A DNA stretch of 64,000 nucleotides. Origin: Chondrosia reniformis. Its lineage: Eukaryota; Porifera; Demospongiae; Chondrillida; Chondrillidae. The stretch lies in NCBI GenBank assembly GCA_947172415.1, contig OX359192.1:8243401-8307400 (forward strand), given 5' to 3'. Position numbers and translations under genes: made by a program. This document shows, piece after piece, positions 43,621-55,400 of the stretch; the first letter of the stretch is position 1; each line of letters opens with the position of its first letter. The notes under the pieces are model-generated. The model was not told the DNA's origin, did no database searches, and worked only from the letters and a program-made list of their open reading frames with translations.

Positions 43621-44828
43621 ATGGCCGAGGTACATTATGGTCTTCGTGTTTCTCCTACATAAACCTTTTCTACTTCTGTAGGAATTTAGAGGATATTTTC
43701 AGACAACATTAAAAAGGTAAGACTATATATACCTCATTTTCTTTATCCAAATGGATTACATGTAAATAGTTTACAGAGAGATGAATAATATTCTATGTAC
43801 CGCTTTGCAGTGTTGAAGATTTAGAGGGAATTATCATCACAGATCGAGATGGAGTGGTTATATTAGAAGGTAGGTCCTGTTGAATTGCCCAATAGTAGTA
43901 CCATTCGTAGATGCATTCCTTGTGTGCAGCAACCAAAAGTGATTTTCCTCAGAATCTGTCAAAATCAACTTTTCTTGCTTCCTTTGGAGTTGCTAGAGAA
44001 AAGGTGGGCGGTTTTTGCATATTCCACGTGACATATATTCTTAGCTACATCCCTCCCAAAGGCCAACAAGGTGGGTTATGGAAACAACAAGTCGGTCGCA
44101 GCCTTCTATTCGGGGCACCAAGTCATTCAACTTAACTTTTATCCTCTGGTAGTCACACTAGTAGGCAACGCTGAAGCTAACACGGGTCAGTTTGTTTACA
44201 CATCATAGTTATAAAATGTATCTATATTAGCTGTATGTACTTGGAGGTCATGTGATGCGGTGTATGTACTTGGAGGTCATGTGATGTGGTGTATGTACTT
44301 TGAGGTCATGTGATGTGGTGTACGTACTTGGAGGTCATGTGATGTGGTGTATGTACTTGGAGGTCATGTGATGTGGTGTATGTACTTTGAGGTCATGTGA
44401 TGTGGTGTATGTACTTTGAGGTCATGTGATGTGGTGTATGTACTTGGAGGTCATGTGATGTGGTGTATGTACTTTGAGGTCATGTGATGTGGTGTATGTA
44501 CTTGGAGGTCATGTGATGTGGTGTATGTACTTGGAGGTCATGTGATGTGGTGTATGTACTTTGAGGTCATGTGATGTGGTGTATGTACTTGGAGGTCATG
44601 TGATGTGGTGTACGTACTTTGAGGTCATGTGATGTGGTGTACGTACTTTGAGGTCATGTGATGTGGTGTATGTACTTTGAGGTCATGTGATGTGGTGTAT
44701 GTACTTTGAGGTCATGTGATGTGGTGTATGTACTGAGAGTTTCACATGGTGTAGGTGTGCTTTACTCTGTGGAAAATGATATCAAAGGTGCTATGAAAGA
44801 TCTCATTCAAGCAATTGGCTGGGAGTAA
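43621..44828 (+). CDS. LAMTOR3: Ragulator subunit LAMTOR3 (MP1)
   Basis: Six exons, 43621-43629, 43682-43716, 43811-43869, 43930-44003, 44062-44185 and 44755-44828, give exactly 124 aa, the size of vertebrate LAMTOR3. The roadblock fold is clear: SVEDLEGIIITDRDGVVILE, then FLASFGVAREK, GYGNNKSVAAFYSGHQVIQL, PLVVTLVGNAEANTG and a C-terminal helix. LAMTOR3 pairs with LAMTOR2 in the lysosomal Ragulator that recruits Rag GTPases and mTORC1, and scaffolds MEK1. The first coding exon has only three codons. The start lies 116 bp after the NELFA stop. Intron 5 contains a minisatellite. Confidence 0.95.
44229..44733. repeat. 29-bp minisatellite in LAMTOR3 intron 5
   Basis: About 17 copies of a 29 bp unit with core TATGTACTTGGAGGTCATGT and a G/T variant, ending about 20 bp before the last exon. 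Confidence 0.95.
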
Positions 44829-44970: not shown

Positions 44971-46761
44971 CTATCCAAGTAGTGTTTGGAACCTTAAAAT
45001 AAAATAAACCAAAACAGCCAATATGCCTACCAGAATGGGAAATACTACAAATATCCACTTTGTTGATTTGCCACATTTCCAGGGTGAGGTTTGTTTAGCT
45101 GGTGCTGGATCTGTGTTTTGCTGAGTTGGCTGCACGGGTGTCATGGATGGCTCGGGAGGGTCACTTTCAGAGGTGATATTACTGGTGGCTACAGGCTGCA
45201 GAAATGTACCACATCACATCAACCACAACCAAAGGCTAGGCATGTAAATATGGTGTGATAAATGTACAAGCATAGAGGGTTTGAGTTGGTGGTTGTAGTC
45301 AACAAGTAGAAACATGTATGCCCTCAAAACTCACTTCCTGTCGGCTGGAGTTTAGCTCATTTTCAAAGGATACTCTCAAGAGATTCATGATATCTTCATC
45401 TGTATATGTATCGCGCTCTGTCAGACTAGCATAAATATCATCAAAGGAATGTCGGCTTTCAATAGAGGCAAGACAATTCTCCACTAGTGGAATGAAATCC
45501 TTCTCTTCCTCATTGAAGTCAGCTTTGGCCTCTTTTAGCTTTTCATCTACATCCATTTTACTTGGCGGCTCATGAGTGACAACTGCAATGATGAGGCAGC
45601 CAAAGGAGAAGCAATCAATTGTAAGATTATATTCCCCTTTGTACACCTCTGGAGGAAGGTATGGTGATTTTGGGAGAGTGGTCATTTTGTCTATTTCAGG
45701 CTTGAAGTATTTAGCACGACCAAGTCCACTAACTTTGGCCCTGAATGAACTTGTAAGGTAGATATTCTCTGGCTTGAGGTCACGGTGTATGATGGGAGGG
45801 GCTTGACCATGAAGGTACATCATGGCTTGACACACATCTGAGAGAATAGTGCATTTCAGCTTCAGAGGAATAACAGTTCTTAGAGTCTTGTTATTTTTAA
45901 GGAAGTACTCCAGGCTCATAGGGAGGTACTCACAAATGAAGGCCAACTGCTTGGGTGTTCGCTGAAATAACCCAAATATTTGAACTATATTGGGGTGGCT
46001 CAATTTTGCCCAATTTTGGACATCTTTGAAGAAAATCATCAAGTAGCAGTCCTTTTTCTCTTCCCTTGGATTCAATGGAAAATCTTTTGAAAGATATTTC
46101 AAGTGCTTATACTTTACAATGTGAACATTATCGCTTCCTTTAAATTTTTCTTTTTCCTCTTTTACTTCTTCATTTGGAATAGAAAATGTATCTCTAGTTG
46201 TGGATTCTCTCTCTATGGAATGAAACAATACATTTACCTATTTAGAATACAACATCCTAATTGAATCACAGACACTGACCATATGATAGATCACTGACAG
46301 ACTGTACCTACTTTTCATTTCGTCCATCTTGTTAGAGACTATTCTCACTACATCCCTGTAACCATTAATATTCTCATCAATTGTCCCCAACATTAGCTTC
46401 AGAAAATCCACTAGTATTTTAAAATCTTTTGACAAAAGAGCGTCCAATAACCACTCTGTTGCACTCATGCGGTCAGAATCCATCTTTCCTTTTATTTTTG
46501 CCACTTCAAATTCTGTCATTAACTTGTGAGCTTCGATAGACATACATAGCATATTTAGAATCTGAACCATTCGCAGCAAAATTTCAACTCTATTTTCTTT
46601 GATAACGCTACGTAAGAGATGGTCATCTTTTTCGATTGTCAGGTCATTCAAAAATTTACTCAATTGTGTCAAATCCTACATTAAGGAACATATCCTGAAT
46701 AATAATAGTAAAAGTAAAGTAGCTAATGTAGCTCTACCTCATCTGCCATCTCTCCAGCCAT
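44971..46761 (-). CDS. CARD-like/pseudokinase/tail-anchored protein, copy A
   Basis: Four exons close in phase: 46738-46761, 46312-46675, 45335-46212 and 44971-45195, giving 496 aa. Residues about 15-110 look like a CARD-type death fold (DDHLLRSVIKENRVEILLRM, LMTEFEVAKIKGKM, LLDALLSKDFKILVDFLKLM). A protein-kinase fold follows with LSHPNIVQIFGLF and an intact HRDLKPENIYL. DFG is replaced by GLG (KVSGLGRAK) and APE by PPE, so Mg-ATP catalysis is unlikely. The last exon encodes a Pro/Thr-rich linker and a hydrophobic span WIFVVFPILVGILAVLVYF nine residues from the C-terminus, typical of a tail anchor. This is the only copy that keeps the catalytic-loop Asn. It is the most diverged member of the local trio. 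CARD assignment is by pattern. Confidence 0.8.
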
Positions 46762-46889
46762 GTCGCCTCTCTTGGAGCATGGAGGGACTTTCCCTATACC
46801 TCCCACATGACCTCATTCAAGTAAAAATAGAAATACCGGAAATTGCAAAAACATTTCGAAGTTATCAGAGAGTACGGTAGTACTCTCTA

Positions 46890-47604
46890 AGTAGGGATGG
46901 CCGAAAAAAAACATGGCCGCCCTATTCAATGTATTATCAATTAACACCTAATAAATCAACAGCGATAGGTTTTTTGCTTGTATTCGAGTGTTTGCAGTCG
47001 TTTTTGCATGCTTTTCTAAACGCCAAAACATGGTGCGATGCTCTACAACCTTCGCAAAGTGGTTAAACCGAAATAGGCCAAATTCTGAAATTCCTCATTT
47101 TTTCTTCTTCTTTTTTCAAATGAGCTAGCGCTAACATGCGAACTTACACAGGTACATAGAACTAAATCGTCATGAGTGTTTCCGAACTAGGGAATAGGCT
47201 ACCCTAGATTTCAACGCGCTCTATCCGAAGCGCGTTACTTTTTAAAGTGCCAAATTTAGGGCCTCTTCGAACGCCATTTTTTAATTAAGTTTCAAATTCT
47301 CTGTATATAAATAAGTAACTCGAGTTAGAAATATTTGTGGTACTGCCGCCCCCCGTGATCGAATTACTTAGTCGCTTTGCAGGGCCTATATATAGTCGTA
47401 TTCTTAACGATTACGGACCCTTTAATATCCTAAACTGAATGTTAAAGAACGGTAGAAGATTTATTTGACAAATTTGGGATCTTTTCGGACGCCATTTTTT
47501 TAATTTAGAGCTCTCGATTATATTGTCTATTCTGCTACTTTATTTCAAATTTTCACCAAGAAAACTTTCAAAACAAATGTTAATAAGAAAAAAGGAGCAA
47601 TACA
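46890..47604. other. Intergenic repeat-bearing sequence between copies A and B
   Basis: No gene found. Two diverged copies of a segment with CGCCATTTTTT preceded by TCTTCGAA or TTTTCGGA occur at about 47255-47285 and 47475-47505. A GTAGGGATGG motif at 46891 matches the ends of the foldback element to the right, so the interval may be older transposon debris. Confidence 0.5.
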
Positions 47605-47976
47605 AGTTAAATAAAAACATTCAAAAATGAAGTTAAAAGTAGGGATGGCACTATAACAGTGATTGGCACATCTAGAAAAAGTAACGAAACAAGAAAGTGA
47701 TCATATGGTAAGGCTAACATTGCAGAAGTGGCATACTGAAACTTAACTATACACATCACTTCTATGTTTGGGCGCATCGATCCCTACTTCTAGTATATCC
47801 ATGATGCGCCCAAACATAGAAGTGATGTGTATAGTTAAGTTTCAGTATGCCACTTCTGCAATGTTAGCCTTACCATATGATCACTTTCTTGTTTTGTTAC
47901 TTTTTCTAGATGTGCCAATCACTGTTATAGTGCCATCCCTACTTTTAACTTCATTTTTGAATGTTTTTATTTAACT
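47605..47976. mobile_element. 372-bp foldback element (174-bp inverted arms, 24-bp loop)
   Basis: Arms 47605-47778 and 47803-47976 are equal in length and almost identical inverse copies; only one mismatch was noticed. A diverged partial copy in the left-arm direction follows at about 47982-48090 (GTAGGGATGGCAGTACTTGC onward). The motif GTAGGGATGG occurs in both arms and both flanks. No coding capacity. A transcript would form a very long hairpin. Confidence 0.92.
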
Positions 47977-48226
47977 TTTAGAAGTAGGGATGGCAGTACT
48001 TGCAACAGTGACTAGTACATCTGGAAAGTAGTGAAACAAGACAGTGATCATGTGATAGGACTAAGTATACATAAGTGGTACACTGCAAGCAATTTAAGTG
48101 ACCTAACCACCATTACAGCTCAACAGCTCAATATGAAGTACCTATACATATAAACCCTAATGTTTCTGTTCTGGTATAGACCTCCCATATGCATGATATC
48201 ATTAAATAAAGTGTTTATTAAATGGT

Positions 48227-49967
48227 TTACTTGTAAATCACAAGAAAAAATAGAACAGCAATTATAATGATTAAAATAGAAATTATCCAAACATTCATAT
48301 CTCCAGCTGCAGGATGGTCTGACTTGGGACTGTCAGTCTGTTTTGGACTAACTGTAGCAGCTGAAAGAGTTTCAGGCGGTACCAGCTACAGAAATAGTAT
48401 ACATGGTCTCACTTAGCGACAGAGGATAGACTACATACTGACACCCATATTAAGAAATGCTTACAAGTAGTATAAAACTGTGTGTGTTAGTAGTAGGCTC
48501 ACTTCTGTCTCCGTAGGCTTTGAGGAAAGATTTATCTTAAAAGAGTTACTTAAAAGTTTCATCATATCATCATCTGAATAAGTTTTCTTTTCAATGAGGT
48601 TCTCATAAATAGAATCAAAGGAGGGGCGCTCTTTTGAATTGTCACACAGACAACGCTTGATGATTGGAGTGAACTCAACCTTCTCCTCATCATTAAACTC
48701 CTTTGTGATGTACTGACGCTTCTCAAACTCATTCATTTGCGGCCTCTCAAGAGGGTTGGGGACCTTGTGGGAGATGGTCTCCAGAATGATGCAACCAAAG
48801 GAGAAGCAGTCAATGGATGCATCATATTCCTGCAGAGCGCTGGTCTCCAGAGGTAGATAAGGAGAGGAGACCAGTTTGGTCAGCTTGTCATCACTGCTGC
48901 AGTATTTGGCATGACTCAATCCACTGACTTTGGCTCTGAAGGATCTGGTCAGGTAGATGCTTTCTGTCTTGAGGTCTCGATGCATGATAGGAGGGTCCTG
49001 GTTTTGGAGGTACTTCATTGCCTGACACACATCCACCAAAATGGTGCGTTTCAGCTTTATTGGAGTGGAGTCTTTGCTTGCTCTCAATAAGAACTCTCCA
49101 AGACTCATTGGGAAGAACTCACGAATGAAGGCCAACTGGTTATGTGTTCGCTGAAATAACCCAAATATTTGAACTATATTGGGGTGGCTCAATTTTGTCC
49201 AATTTTGGATGTCTCTGATGAAAAGTGGTAAAGATGTGCTTTTTTTACTTTCTGTTAGATCTAAAGGGAAGTCTTTAGAGACATAATTCAAGCCCCTGTA
49301 CTTTACCATGTGGATACGATCACTTTTACTAAACTTTTCAGGTTTGACTTCTACTTCTGATTGTGGAATGAAGAATGAACCAGGAACTGGATCATCTTCT
49401 CTGTCTTCAGTGATGGCCCCAGTTTTACCTGTGGAACAACATTGGTCGGGTTGAGCAGCAAAAATGTAACCAAAATATAGTTTTTTTAAAAAAAACTAAC
49501 CTTTCATAGCATTCATTTTTTCATGGATAAATCCGACTATATCACTGCAACCAGACACATGTTCACTCACTTCTCCTAACAACAACCTTAAGAACTTTAT
49601 TAGAATGTCAAAATCCTTTGCCAACAGCTTGTCTAACAAGCACCGGGTTACCGACATAGCATCGCTAGTTACTTTTGCCTTCACGGATTGTACTTCATAG
49701 ACTGTCATCAATTCTTCAGATTCAATACAATCCACGAGTAGATCAATACTTGGCTGCATACGTAACAAAACATCCAGTTTCGTTTTTCGGATAGCTTGGC
49801 GCAAGTGATTATCATCTTTTTTCGTCAACTTTGTGAGAAAATCACTCAATCTCTATAAATATAAATTATTACGATCATTCTAGGATTCTCAGGTACATAT
49901 AATACCTCCCAAACAAAATGTTTACCTTATTATAATCAGAGACGAAGCTCTTCAGATCTACAGCCAT
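48227..49967 (-). CDS. CARD-like/pseudokinase/tail-anchored protein, copy B
   Basis: Four exons close in phase: 49926-49967, 49501-49852, 48503-49428 and 48227-48385, giving 492 aa. The N-terminal CARD-like segment has DDNHLRQAIRKTKLDVLLRM and LLDKLLAKDFDILIKFLRLL. The kinase-like domain has HRDLKTESIYL (catalytic-loop Asn changed to Ser) and KVSGLSHAK in place of DFG, so two Mg-binding residues are lost. The last exon has a Pro/Ser linker then VWIISILIIIIAVLFFLVIY ending the protein. The N-lobe around LSHPNIVQIFGLFQRT is nearly identical in DNA to copy A, while everything after AFIREFFPMSLGEF is nearly identical to copy C, including the last intron and tail exon. The gene is therefore a mosaic. 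Confidence 0.82.
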
Positions 49968-50045
49968 GATGCTGCTGCTGTTTGAAGGGATTTTCCCTAA
50001 CAGTTCCAAAATGTGTATGACATCATTTAAAATAAAATGGCTATT

Positions 50046-52309
50046 TTAAAATGGTTTATAAATCACTAGGAAAAGTAGAGCAGCAATAATTACAATTAAA
50101 ATAGAAATTATCCAAACATTCATATCTCCAGCTGCAGGATGGTCTGACTTGGGACTGTCAGCCTGTTTTGGACTAACTGTAACAGCTAAAAGAGTTTCAG
50201 GCGGTACCAGCTACAGAAATAGTATACATGGACTCACTTAGTGACAGAGGATTGACTACATACTGACAACCATATTAAGCAATGCTTACAAGTAGTATAA
50301 AACTGTGTGTGTTAGTAGTAGGCTCACTTCTGTCTCCGTAGGCTTTGAGGAAAGATTTATCTTAAAAGAGTTACTTAAAAGTTTCATCATATCATCATCT
50401 GAACAAGTTTTCTTTTCAATGAGGTTCTCATAAATAGAATCAAAGGAGGGGCGCTCTTTTGAATTGTCACACAGACAACGCTTGATGATTGGAGTGAACT
50501 CAACCTTCTCCTCATCATTAAACTCCTTTGTGATGTACTGACGCTTCTCAAACTCATTCATCTGCGGCCTCTCAAGAGGGTTGGGGACCTTGTGGGAGAT
50601 GGTCTCCAGAATGATGCAACCAAAGGAGAAGCAGTCGATGGATGCATCATATTCCTGCAGAGCGCTGGTCTCCAGAGGTAGATAAGGAGAGGAGACCAGT
50701 TTGGTCAGCTTGTCATCACTGCTGCAGTATTTGGCATGACTCAATCCACTGACTTTGGCTCTGAAGGATCTGGTCAGGTAGATGCTTTCTGTCTTGAGGT
50801 CTCGATGCATGATAGGAGGGTCCTGGTTTTGGAGGTACTTCATTGCCTGACACACGTCCACCAAAATGGTGCGTTTCAGCTTTATTGGGATAGAGTCTTT
50901 GCTTGCTCTCAATAAGAACTCTCCAAGACTCATTGGGAAGAACTCACGAATGAAGGCCAGCTGGTCGATGCTGGCCTTCCTTCTTCTCCAAAAGCCAGTT
51001 ATGGACACAATATTGGGATGACTAAGTCGTGCCCACTGACGGGATTCTCTGATGAAGTAGATCAAGGGCCTCTTGTCTGGCTTCAGCAGATCTAGGGACA
51101 CGTCCTTGGCTATATATTTCAAACTCTTATAGTCCACAACACGAATACGTTCACTACCTCCGTAATTTTCCTTTAACACAGAGATTTCTCTATCAGGTAT
51201 GAAGCAAGTTCCCAGAGCTACAAATGTGCTACTCTCCCTCCTATTCACTGGAGAGTGGCTCTGCTATGTACAAGTAAAATTTATATGAAGCTACATATAT
51301 ACATATATTATGACTGGATAGGCTGTTAAAGTTACGAAATTAAGCCATGTGTTACATGCTTTAGGTTCATTGGTAGAGAAGCATTCCTAACACATTCTAC
51401 TAGGAATGACTAGTATTCAAAGAGGATCATACCATTATAGTATCACTTTCTTCAAGGACATTAGTAAATTCTTGTTCCATCTTCAAAATAAAATTCTTCA
51501 GGTCTCTCATGTCAGCCAGAATCACCTCTGCCTTGAAAAGAGAAGTGGAACTCAAACTATCTCTAAACACTTCAATGTCAGAAATGCGAGCCAGATCTTT
51601 CATCATCTCCTCAGTGGTAGTTCTCACCTATCAAAATGTATTATATACACATAAAATACATCCTCCAGTAAAAATCAATTTCTTCATCATAGCCTTTGCA
51701 CAGGGTTTGGTACAATTAACTATCAAAAGAACTACTTTTATGTGCGTACTTTCTTAACATCATCAAACGTATTTAATTTCTCTTTGGTTGCCGCCTCCAT
51801 GCCAGCTATTCCTCTACCTATTGGAGCGATACATGCACAAGATTAGTAGAGAGATCAGTTAAATGAATCCTTGTACTGTACAGTACTTTTCAGTTCCCTA
51901 ATTCCATCCATCACGGTACTCGCAATTTCACGATATCCATGAAGTTCTTCGTTCGACAAAAATTCAAGTAGAAAATCTTTTATGACGGATAAGTCTTTCT
52001 TCCGTAGAATATCAATTAACTGCTCTGCCTTGCTGTAGCTATCATCGCCGTTCCCCACTCTCACAGATGCACCCTCCCTGTCATTCAGGATTCTTTTACT
52101 CAAAAGTATTGTGGGGAGTGCCAACATTGGTAGTCGAACAGTTAATACATCCCTCCTCACAACCAAGGCCTCCCTCAAGAAATGGTCGTCAGCACTAGTT
52201 AACGCTTTAATGTCATCTTCCTGAAAATTAACATCGATAACTCTTGAAACACTGTCAATACATCAATAATGTATCTTACCATTTGTAAATAATTGACTGG
52301 GCCGCACAT
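50046..52309 (-). CDS. CARD-like/pseudokinase/tail-anchored protein, copy C
   Basis: Six exons close in phase: 52280-52309, 51887-52220, 51750-51817, 51433-51627, 50328-51263 and 50046-50210, giving 575 aa. The CARD-like segment (DDHFLREALVVRRDVLTVRL, LIDILRKKDLSVIKDFLLEF) is the most diverged. Two extra exons, absent from A and B, encode a charged helical linker (MEAATKEKLNTFDDVKK; RDSLSSTSLFKAEVILADM). The kinase-like N-lobe differs from A and B (LKYIAKDVSLDLLKPDKRP, FIRESRQWARLSHPNIV) and is the only one with a Glu in the helix C position. The C-lobe is almost the same as copy B, with HRDLKTESIYL and KVSGLSHAK. The tail is VWIISILIVIIAALLFLVIY then KPF. Predicted catalytically inactive and membrane-anchored. 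Confidence 0.82.
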
Positions 52310-52463: not shown

Positions 52464-55400
52464 TTAACATTGCAATATCAAATGTGCCCCCTTCAGCACA
52501 GCTCCTAAATACACAACTACTACTCCACGTCTTGGTATGTAGACACCACCTCTATGTAGTTTGTTCACAGTGGTCACTTGTGGCAGCTCTCTGACATTGC
52601 TAGCATCATGAAGAAGAGCTGTGTCTGCTTTACAGCCAATTACATGGATTATAACATTCAGCTCTGAATGAGCAGTGACAGTCACATGAAGAAAGCCCTT
52701 TGCATCCATCCTGTACAGATCAAATATTATGTCACTTTAACCACAAAAATGTAACACAGTAATAGTCATATCTGTAAAACCACCTGTATTCAAACACTTA
52801 AAAAATTATTATGTCATGGAGATGTCACAATAGCTTACTGGTGTGATGCAATCATCCCCACCCCCTGCTCCTCCCTCAAATGAGTAACTACTGGTTTCTC
52901 AGTCCATTCTGGATAAAGGAGCTGGAATCTAATGGCATCACGGAATAGTGGGACCTCTCCGAGATAGTCTGTCAAAGGAGTCACTCTCAGTGGTAGGAAT
53001 GCATCTAAGTCAAGAAGAACATGCAACCAAATAAATATCAGCACTATATATACAGCACATGAAAGGAATACCACAGTCTGGTCCTCACTTGTTTTAATGA
53101 ATACCGGAAATATTTCCAGTGGCAGATTGTTAAACTGGGCCATTTGACCTCCTTGGTAGACCAGGGATTCATTCCATTCAGCCACCCACTTGGATCCAAC
53201 TGGAAAGTCCACTCTGACCTGCGATGGCTCTGCTGTCACAGGCGCCACTAGTATGTTGTCTCCCAGGAGATAGTTGTAGGTATCAGGTTTAAATAGATCA
53301 ATCAGCTGCATACAATGAGATGAGGAATAATCTATCTAATAATAGCACACATATAGCAGATATAATTAAAAAGGTGAGTGCATATGGTAATTACGTACCT
53401 TGTCAATGAAGTCTTCATGCTTTGCTAAAGGGGTTATAGCACTAGTGCCATGTTCCATAGCAAATGCTCCAATGGTCAGAAAGTAGGGAACAAGCTTGTA
53501 ATGAGTATCTACAAACCTACATATTATATTATGCAACATGATGCAATACTGGGGCATTGCATGGTTACACAGCTAGGTACTTTTTGTAAATATTTAGAGT
53601 TTGGTTTGTATTGTCAAACATCCAGGGCCTGTGTTCCTTGTTGCCTCCATTTTCCATGAGCGGGGAGAAGGCCCCCAACTGGAACCAGCGAATAAACAGC
53701 TCCTTTGTCCTTCCCAAGGTCCCATTCCCACTTCTGTAGCCCCCAATATCAGAACCAAAATTTGCATATCCTATATGAATATTGATGTCCATTCAACAGT
53801 TATGTTTGTAGATTACCAGTACCTTTCATACCTGCCCAAGCTGACTGAAGATATCGCTTCAGTGCCTCCTGTAGTCCTTCAAAAGTTGGATCTTGGTCGC
53901 CAACCCAACCAGAATACATGACATCTCGTGGACTAAAATCCAAATATATTGGGCCATACCTACATGAATAGCATAGCAGAAGAAATATACCCCACAGCTA
54001 AATACATCCACTGACTACTGATACATACCCATCAACAGGGCGAGACCATATCAGGGAGTCGTTGGCCCCTCTTTTACTTCTTATATAGAAGAAGAAGTCA
54101 TTGTAATACATATCAGAATACTGCTTCCTTGAAACATGACCAGAGGTACCCTGGGCATCAAACACTTCCAAAATGTATGGATCAGTGCCATCACATTTCC
54201 ATCCATCAATACCTAGATCAATAACCTGTTGAAAGTACATACACAATGCTTCACCACACGCATTAGACTTAGGTATGTATATATAAAAATACATATAATA
54301 TATTATAGGTAGCTATGGTATAATGAGATTCATTGATGCATATGGTGCGCATGTTAACATTGTCAAGTTGTTTGTGCCACCAATCCACTGCGTCCTTGTT
54401 AGTATAGTCCAGCAGGCCTCCAGTACCATGCCACCACTTCAACATGGCCGCCTTGCCAAAGATATCTCTACAAACATATGTATAGAGATCTCATGAATAC
54501 TTGAAGTGATAGTCAAACCACAAGTAATTTCAATCATTCTCAAACATTATGAAGAGGGAAACACACTAAAGAAGCAATTGCTGGGAGTCAAACTCAGGAG
54601 TAATGACAGCTGGCTATGACCACCAGTGCTCTGCCACTGAGCTACATTTGCCACAGCAATGCTCCATTCATGTTTCCCATCTTATATATACTAACTATAG
54701 AGATAAGATTAATCCTCATCAAGTTGATAGTCAAGACTGAAGATCAAGATAATTCATGCACCATCTTGTGACAAACTGTTGTTATGAGTTTGATTTATAT
54801 GCATACAGTATAACAGTATAATGTACAGGCCTTACCTAATGAAGTATCCATTGTCAAGTGCCTCTTTAAAGTTTGGTGAATTTGTATCAATCATAGATGT
54901 AGCCCACAGTATCACTCTTATCTCACTGGAGTGGAACCAAGCTATCTAAATGTGAAGGAGAAAGAAGAGGTTAGAGACTTCTCTACTGATGTGGTGCTCT
55001 GGAATTACCATCTCTGAGGCATTCGGATACTTCTCTTTGTTAAATATAAAATTGTTGAAACCTGTTGACCATGAAGAGTCTATGTCTACTCCACCAACCT
55101 ACAGCCATACAATACTGGTATATACTGGTATATAGACTTACTTATTCATATGTGTATTAAATTATTTACTTGGCACATGAAATCCTATATTGCATATTGC
55201 ATGTACACATATAGTCATAGTTAGTCTTTACTTGATGTCGAATATATTACTGAGTAGTACCACTGATCGGCAATGATAAAACCAATCTTGCATTAATGCT
55301 TTACTTACACTCACATTCATAAATGTAAATATATACTTACAGGAATATCGTACTTTAGATACTCCTTAGTATACTCAATCATAGAAGCTTGATTTGCACG

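Follow-up and report, generated by a model that had tools for sequence, protein, structure and literature searches.

A Sponge Gene Trio Combining a Predicted CARD, a Kinase Domain Lacking the DFG Aspartate and a Likely C-Terminal Membrane Anchor

MAVS carries an N-terminal CARD, a Pro-rich linker with TRAF-binding motifs and a single C-terminal anchor, with no other known folded domain; it is, to our knowledge, the main known example of CARD signalling at a membrane. RIPK2, a CARD-bearing kinase of the NOD pathway, places an active kinase first and the CARD last and is not known to have a membrane anchor, and MLKL consists of an N-terminal four-helix killer domain followed by a pseudokinase. 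The present analysis concerns three adjacent minus-strand genes, A, B and C, located at positions 52309-44971 of a 64 kb stretch of the genome of the sponge Chondrosia reniformis (C4:8243401-8307400; hereafter the window, to which all positions given without a contig refer). Their domain arrangement may be the sign of a membrane-bound platform for immune or cell-death signalling. Genome searches covered 117,379,552 bases on 15 contigs.

For Amphimedon, PMC8195603 describes proteins with a Death-superfamily domain, a TRADD-N domain and a variable C-terminus, some of them with a C-terminal kinase; for Halichondria panicea, PMC8242945 describes kinase genes with DEATH domains that respond to lipopolysaccharide. 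Two further sources report 39 CARD and 128 DEATH genes in Dysidea avara (PMC12909245) and, in Trichoplax sp. H2, the finding of no more than a single kinase that bears a Death-like domain (PMC6321704).

Gene models and domain anatomy

Rebuilding the exons from the raw sequence gives a protein of 575 amino acids for A, one of 492 for B and one of 496 for C, with GT-AG introns and open frames throughout, and the three adjacent minus-strand genes with closing exon phases of the original prediction were recovered at the same coordinates. Gene A (50046..52309), modelled from splice sites and reading frame, has six exons (52309-52280, 52220-51887, 51817-51750, 51627-51433, 51263-50328 and 50210-50046, the last with the stop codon). 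Gene B (48227..49967) has four (49967-49926, 49852-49501, 49428-48503 and 48385-48227 with the stop), as has gene C (44971..46761; 46761-46738, 46675-46312, 46212-45335 and 45195-44971 with the stop). The intron phases are alike in the three genes, namely 1 after the CARD exon and 0 before the tail exon. The domain order claimed earlier is also present in 3/3 models: an N-terminal CARD, a kinase domain without the DFG Asp, a linker and a C-terminal hydrophobic span. In comparison with B and C, gene A carries two extra exons between its CARD and kinase exons (exons 3-4, 51433..51817, minus strand), which look helical by eye; matches to exon 4 were searched for elsewhere in the genome and none was found.

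The N-terminal domain is a CARD, an assignment well supported by sequence profiles, hhalign comparison and predicted structures. It is encoded on the minus strand by the exons at 51887..52220 in A, 49501..49852 in B and 46312..46675 in C. The Pfam CARD profile matches A with E 0.0019 (18.6 bits) and B with E 0.031 (14.7 bits) and gives no match in C; none of the three reaches the curated cut-off of 23.9 bits. When the helical exons of A, B and C were joined into one profile, hhalign returned 95.4% (E 1.8e-8) against CARDs of the same genome and 0.2% only against its Death domains, and C alone gave 85% versus 0.4%; the CARD profile was built from 14 of 30 genomic CARD loci and the Death profile from 4 loci, the latter hence being thinner. 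Against the PDB, CARDs accounted for 9/13 hits of the three-exon profile, with ICEBERG best (E 0.034) and APAF-1 next (E 0.044).

Fold prediction covered the CARDs of A and B. For B, AlphaFold2 run with three sequences in the alignment predicted seven helices, with five-model mean predicted local distance difference test (pLDDT) values of 80.5, 79.4, 69.0, 62.6 and 60.5. In a Foldseek comparison with the PDB, the B model matched the APAF-1 CARD at a template modelling (TM) score of 0.84 by target and 2.4 Å, with a best E of 0.1, and natural CARD-bearing chains, recognised by title, made up 40 of the best 50 of 103 matches. The top PDB match of the A model (pLDDT 58.8) is likewise the APAF-1 CARD, with E 0.014. 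The suggestion of a death-fold, CARD-like N-terminus is thus borne out by both profiles and predicted folds.

The kinase exons (50328..51263 in A, 48503..49428 in B and 45335..46212 in C, all minus strand) match the Pfam protein kinase profile with E 3.1e-23, 1.7e-24 and 5.8e-27, respectively, and their scores of 82.9, 87.1 and 95.2 bits are far over the cut-off of 31.7 bits. The absence of the DFG Asp, already part of the original prediction, holds for all three genes, in which the motif reads GLS (A), GLS (B) and GLG (C), whereas this Asp is kept in 39/39 other aligned kinase open reading frames (ORFs) of the genome, a set that includes five near-copies (L001-L005). The glycine loop is lost in A, B and C, and the catalytic-loop Asn is replaced by Ser in A and B and kept in C, where HRDLKPEN is intact. 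The beta-3 Lys, the HRD Asp, HRDLK and DxFSFG are all kept in 3/3. With the DFG Asp lost, the three domains are, by sequence, pseudokinases. Their nearest solved structures are generic (Aurora A, TNNI3K and WNK1).

The linker and the C-terminal hydrophobic span share the last exon, which lies on the minus strand at 50046..50210 in A (ending in YKPF), 48227..48385 in B (ending in YK) and 44971..45195 in C, where the linker is rich in Pro, Ser and Gln. The best 19-residue mean hydropathy is 3.37 (A), 3.46 (B) and 3.02 (C), values reached 0, 0 and 1 times, respectively, when each protein was shuffled 2000 times, and the residues above 1.6 are 545-575, 464-492 and 465-496; one further, marginal span (1.63) falls within the kinase of C. 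The N-terminal 40 residues attain a hydropathy of at most 0.28, and since the N-termini are not hydrophobic, the bulk of each protein should face the cytosol. This is the anatomy of tail-anchored proteins, and the single span described earlier at the extreme C-terminus is likely a membrane anchor. Very hydrophobic tails as a rule favour the endoplasmic reticulum, which by that analogy may suit the tails of A, B and C better than mitochondria.

Divergence, gene conversion and related genes

In a kinase-domain tree drawn from 42 rows (3 from the window and 39 others), of which 38 were used after the near-copies L002-L005 had been dropped, the trio forms one clade with support 100/99. Its sister, L028/L039, is placed with weak support (81/71) on long branches.

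Amino-acid identity is lower in the CARD than in the kinase, at 46% versus 55% for B/C and 29% versus 50% for A/C. The corresponding nonsynonymous divergence (dN) is 0.47 versus 0.35 for B/C (1.4 times) and 0.79 versus 0.41 for A/C (1.9 times). The ratios of dN to synonymous divergence (dS), rough because dS is >1, are 0.26 for the CARD and 0.28 for the kinase in B/C, and 0.37 and 0.15 in A/C; such values indicate constraint and give no sign of positive selection. In the linker and tail, C is 30-34% identical to A and B, with dS not computable.

The contrast between N- and C-terminal parts is extreme for A/B because these two genes share a homogenised second half. The shared tract comprises 959 columns at 95.9% identity and runs from the middle of the kinase exon to just beyond the stop codon. 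Its copy in A (50011..50965, minus strand) covers the second half of the kinase exon, the intron, the tail and the start of the 3' flank, and the copy in B, delimited by alignment to A and by the identity step, lies at 48187..49140 on the same strand. Near 50973/49143, identity rises in steps, from about 0.53 to 0.85 and on to more than 0.9. Upstream of the tract, the likeness between A and B amounts to only 28% in the CARD and 39% over the first part of the kinase exon; inside it, identity reaches 99% over the second part of that exon and 88% over the tail exon, with 5 synonymous versus 2 nonsynonymous codon differences in 212 kinase codons. Such a tract (about 0.95 kb) is the expected trace of gene conversion or unequal exchange. 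Judged from these alignments, gene conversion exaggerates, but does not create, the N-terminal divergence. Rapidly changing N-terminal parts, as originally proposed, are therefore retained in a weaker form: the CARD does change faster than the kinase, but moderately and under constraint, and the A/B extreme reflects conversion.

The CARD exons were searched against the genome exon by exon, with only the best candidates scored; the query from A yielded 5 places and those from B and C 3 each, with no fourth copy among them. Two places lie outside the trio, C5:8313190 (E 0.0029) and C9:2557387 (E 0.3), both weak matches found with the A query only. They are among the 90 CARD places of the genome, 36 of them over the Pfam cut-off, which are possible partners of the trio. 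The place on C5 (L051) was rejected as a further copy, with a CARD and a coiled coil by eye and no kinase seen in 3.2 kb. Local amplification consequently holds in the sense of three genes in one clade, but not of a large family.

A recurrence survey compared kinase places (134 and 131 in two scans) by eye with the 90 CARD and 150 Death places, and took up the near same-strand pairs on C3 and C1; DED and the Death places close to kinases at C4:7260184 and C14:1098070 lay outside it. One candidate (L077), a CARD-coiled coil-NHL-like gene followed by a kinase ORF, was read from its sequence as separate genes. The same reading was given to two Death-kinase candidates: in L078 a Death exon precedes a kinase ORF that has a Met of its own, and in L079 a Death exon is followed by an OTU/zinc-finger-like ORF and a kinase ORF. 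In L076, a kinase ORF was present and no death fold was noticed. Two features of these loci may be recorded. At L077:550-3770, a CARD-like exon (E 0.0007, under the cut-off), a coiled coil and NHL-like repeats give a TRIM-like layout by eye; at L079:4535-7129, an 864-residue ORF near the Death-domain exon looks, again by eye, like an OTU protease with A20-type zinc fingers.

The kinases L015-L041, which share 31-38% identity with C in the part that matches, keep the DFG Asp in 27/27. Within these single-exon ORFs, neighbouring exons being outside this look, no CARD-like part was seen by eye, and the strongest hydrophobic spans reach 2.07 (L021) and 1.96 (L024). As side observations on this kinase expansion, many members read HHDLSPNN rather than HRDLKPEN, yet keep DFG, and some ORFs contain NHL-like repeats by eye.

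Upstream sites and neighbouring sequence

A kappaB-like site, GGGAAAATCCC, lies on the minus strand at 49987..49997, 19 bp before the ATG of B and within the 78-bp gap between A and B. A second, GGGAAAGTCCC (GGGACTTTCCC on the plus strand), lies on the minus strand at 46784..46794, 22 bp before the ATG of C. On the opposite strand, the B site contains GGGATTTTCC and the C site GGGACTTTCC, both of which we take to be canonical kappaB sites. The two were noticed during alignment of the 5' flanks, and the 11-mer GGGAAARTCCC was written from them; it occurs twice in the window, at these sites only, against 0.02 expected, a figure obtained after the fact. Genome-wide, 492 copies are present, some of them in repeats, versus 59 of the reversed word, 56 of the G/C-swapped word and 203 of the swapped reverse. 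One kinase locus, L016, carries the 11-mer. The genome has an RHD gene on C10, and NF-kappaB in sponges is reviewed in PMC13042239. Through these putative sites, NF-kappaB may induce B and C, a possibility that bears weakly on an immune role of the trio.

The gap between B and C holds repeats. An inverted repeat at 47601-47980, with 178-nt arms that are 99% complementary and 24 nt apart, may be a recent palindromic mobile element. Just downstream of C, a tandem array (44232-44734) consists of 17.3 copies of a 29-bp unit with 97% matches. Upstream of A and on the same strand, a glycoside hydrolase family 31 gene occupies 52464-53335; the Pfam domain Glyco_hydro_31_3rd is found in the ORF 52835-53335 (E 4.7e-9), and by eye the last exon seems to end at 52464, 154 bp before A.

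Proposed working and comparison with known systems

With a probability of roughly 0.5, A, B and C are cytosol-facing, tail-anchored CARD adaptors that use the pseudokinase as a scaffold or switch and are MAVS-like in working. The position of the CARD and the likely anchor at opposite ends points to a membrane-bound adaptor that is recruited through CARD contacts, and the mechanism proposed here draws on this protein anatomy and on established CARD biology. The N-terminal CARD would join CARD assemblies seeded by one of the CARD-bearing sensors of the sponge, and the kinase domain, no longer catalysing normally, would act as a scaffold or as a switch between conformations. By means of its hydrophobic C-terminus, the protein would be fixed in an intracellular membrane, and the CARD assembly would form there, just as that of MAVS forms on mitochondria; NF-kappaB induction of B and C would provide feed-forward. 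The transcripts, membrane insertion and the membrane concerned, the CARD partners, the lack of catalysis, NF-kappaB control and an immune or cell-death output are all points that we infer. A more specific version, namely an independently evolved MAVS-like platform formed by an NF-kappaB-inducible, membrane-anchored CARD adaptor in which a nucleotide- or ligand-sensitive pseudokinase gates the growth of CARD filaments, is possible but doubtful.

Several results weigh against the adaptor proposal. The three-domain architecture is that of predicted gene models. The CARD model of A is of low confidence, three of the five B models have a pLDDT of 69 or less, and the Foldseek E-values quoted above are weak even at their best. 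Because the beta-3 Lys and the HRD Asp are kept, residual or atypical kinase activity is possible. The TRAF-type PxQxT motif, represented by PVQPT in the linker of C, is absent from the A and B linkers and also occurs in 7% of shuffles. In most comparisons dS is >1 or not computable, the latter applying to the tails of C versus A and B. As regards the kappaB-like sites, the 11-mer pattern was drawn up once the B and C sites had been seen, and these two are probably copies of one ancestral element. For the general consensus GGGRNNYYCC, the window contains 8 places with 17 matches between them, against 7.2 matches expected; other kappaB-like sites therefore exist in the 64 kb. Gene A has no such site, none of the 8 places falling within the 154 bp before it, and the 11-mer is found at 0/34 other CARD/Death loci (L042-L075, about 1.5 kb of flank).

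Two main rivals have to be considered. In the first, which we regard as unlikely, the proteins sit at membranes as decoys or brakes, with a CARD that caps or sequesters CARD filaments and a dead kinase in competition with an active paralogue, and NF-kappaB control would amount to negative feedback. The loss of the DFG Asp agrees with such a role, and the kappaB-like sites suit feedback too. ICEBERG-type CARD-only proteins cap or sequester CARD filaments, and this inhibitor is the top PDB profile hit, but its E is close to that of APAF-1. Most decoys, however, are truncated versions of an active parent, and the CARD searches gave no active CARD-kinase with a similar CARD. The second rival, in which atypical but active kinases are tethered to membranes through the tail and receive their input through the CARD, would follow a RIPK2-like logic in another order. 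The retention of HRDLK, beta-3 Lys and DxFSFG in all three, together with the intact HRDLKPEN of C, speaks for it; the missing DFG Asp, the degraded glycine loop and the Asn-to-Ser replacement in A and B make it decidedly improbable.

It is very unlikely that the joins are wrong, with CARD, kinase and tail exons in separate transcripts, or that tail-less isoforms dominate. The joins do rest on genomic models, and a kinase exon read on into the last intron meets a stop after 11 codons in C and after 13 in both A and B; exon order, phases and open frames are nevertheless the same in three paralogues, of which C has a kinase only about 50-55% identical to the others. Least probable, with hardly any weight, is an MLKL-type executioner in which helical domain and pseudokinase form a switch acting directly on membranes. 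The order of these two domains and the extra stretch between them in A would suit it, but both profile and fold match the helical domain to CARDs, and MLKL is not known to have a tail anchor.

The adaptor proposal may finally be set beside the described systems. Like MLKL, the trio has an N-terminal helical domain followed by a pseudokinase; the difference lies in the terminal hydrophobic span and in the helical domain, which is a CARD by its CARD matches, with no direct MLKL comparison. In the Amphimedon and Halichondria proteins, an N-terminal death-fold unit is likewise combined with a kinase (PMC8195603, PMC8242945), whereas neither a tail anchor nor a pseudokinase is mentioned in the passages considered. 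TRADD-N gave no Pfam match in A, B or C at E up to 10, a diverged copy being conceivable. The combination of CARD, pseudokinase and tail anchor in one protein was found in none of the best-ranked open-licence PMC matches, subscription literature not being covered. Sponge death-fold/kinase proteins are known already, and it is the arrangement in A, B and C that looks unusual.

The likeness to MAVS and RIPK2 pointed out in the original prediction is fair as analogy. The trio shares with RIPK2 the presence of a CARD and a protein kinase in one protein, but the domain order is reversed, the DFG Asp is lost and a C-terminal span is present. With MAVS it shares a CARD placed first, a Pro-rich linker and a likely anchor placed last, but a kinase domain stands between CARD and span. 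As three genes at one locus, the trio offers a compact system for how pseudokinases gate death-fold assemblies. If the adaptor proposal is true, it would suggest that the anchoring of a CARD at a membrane, as in MAVS, either arose repeatedly or goes back further than has been assumed.

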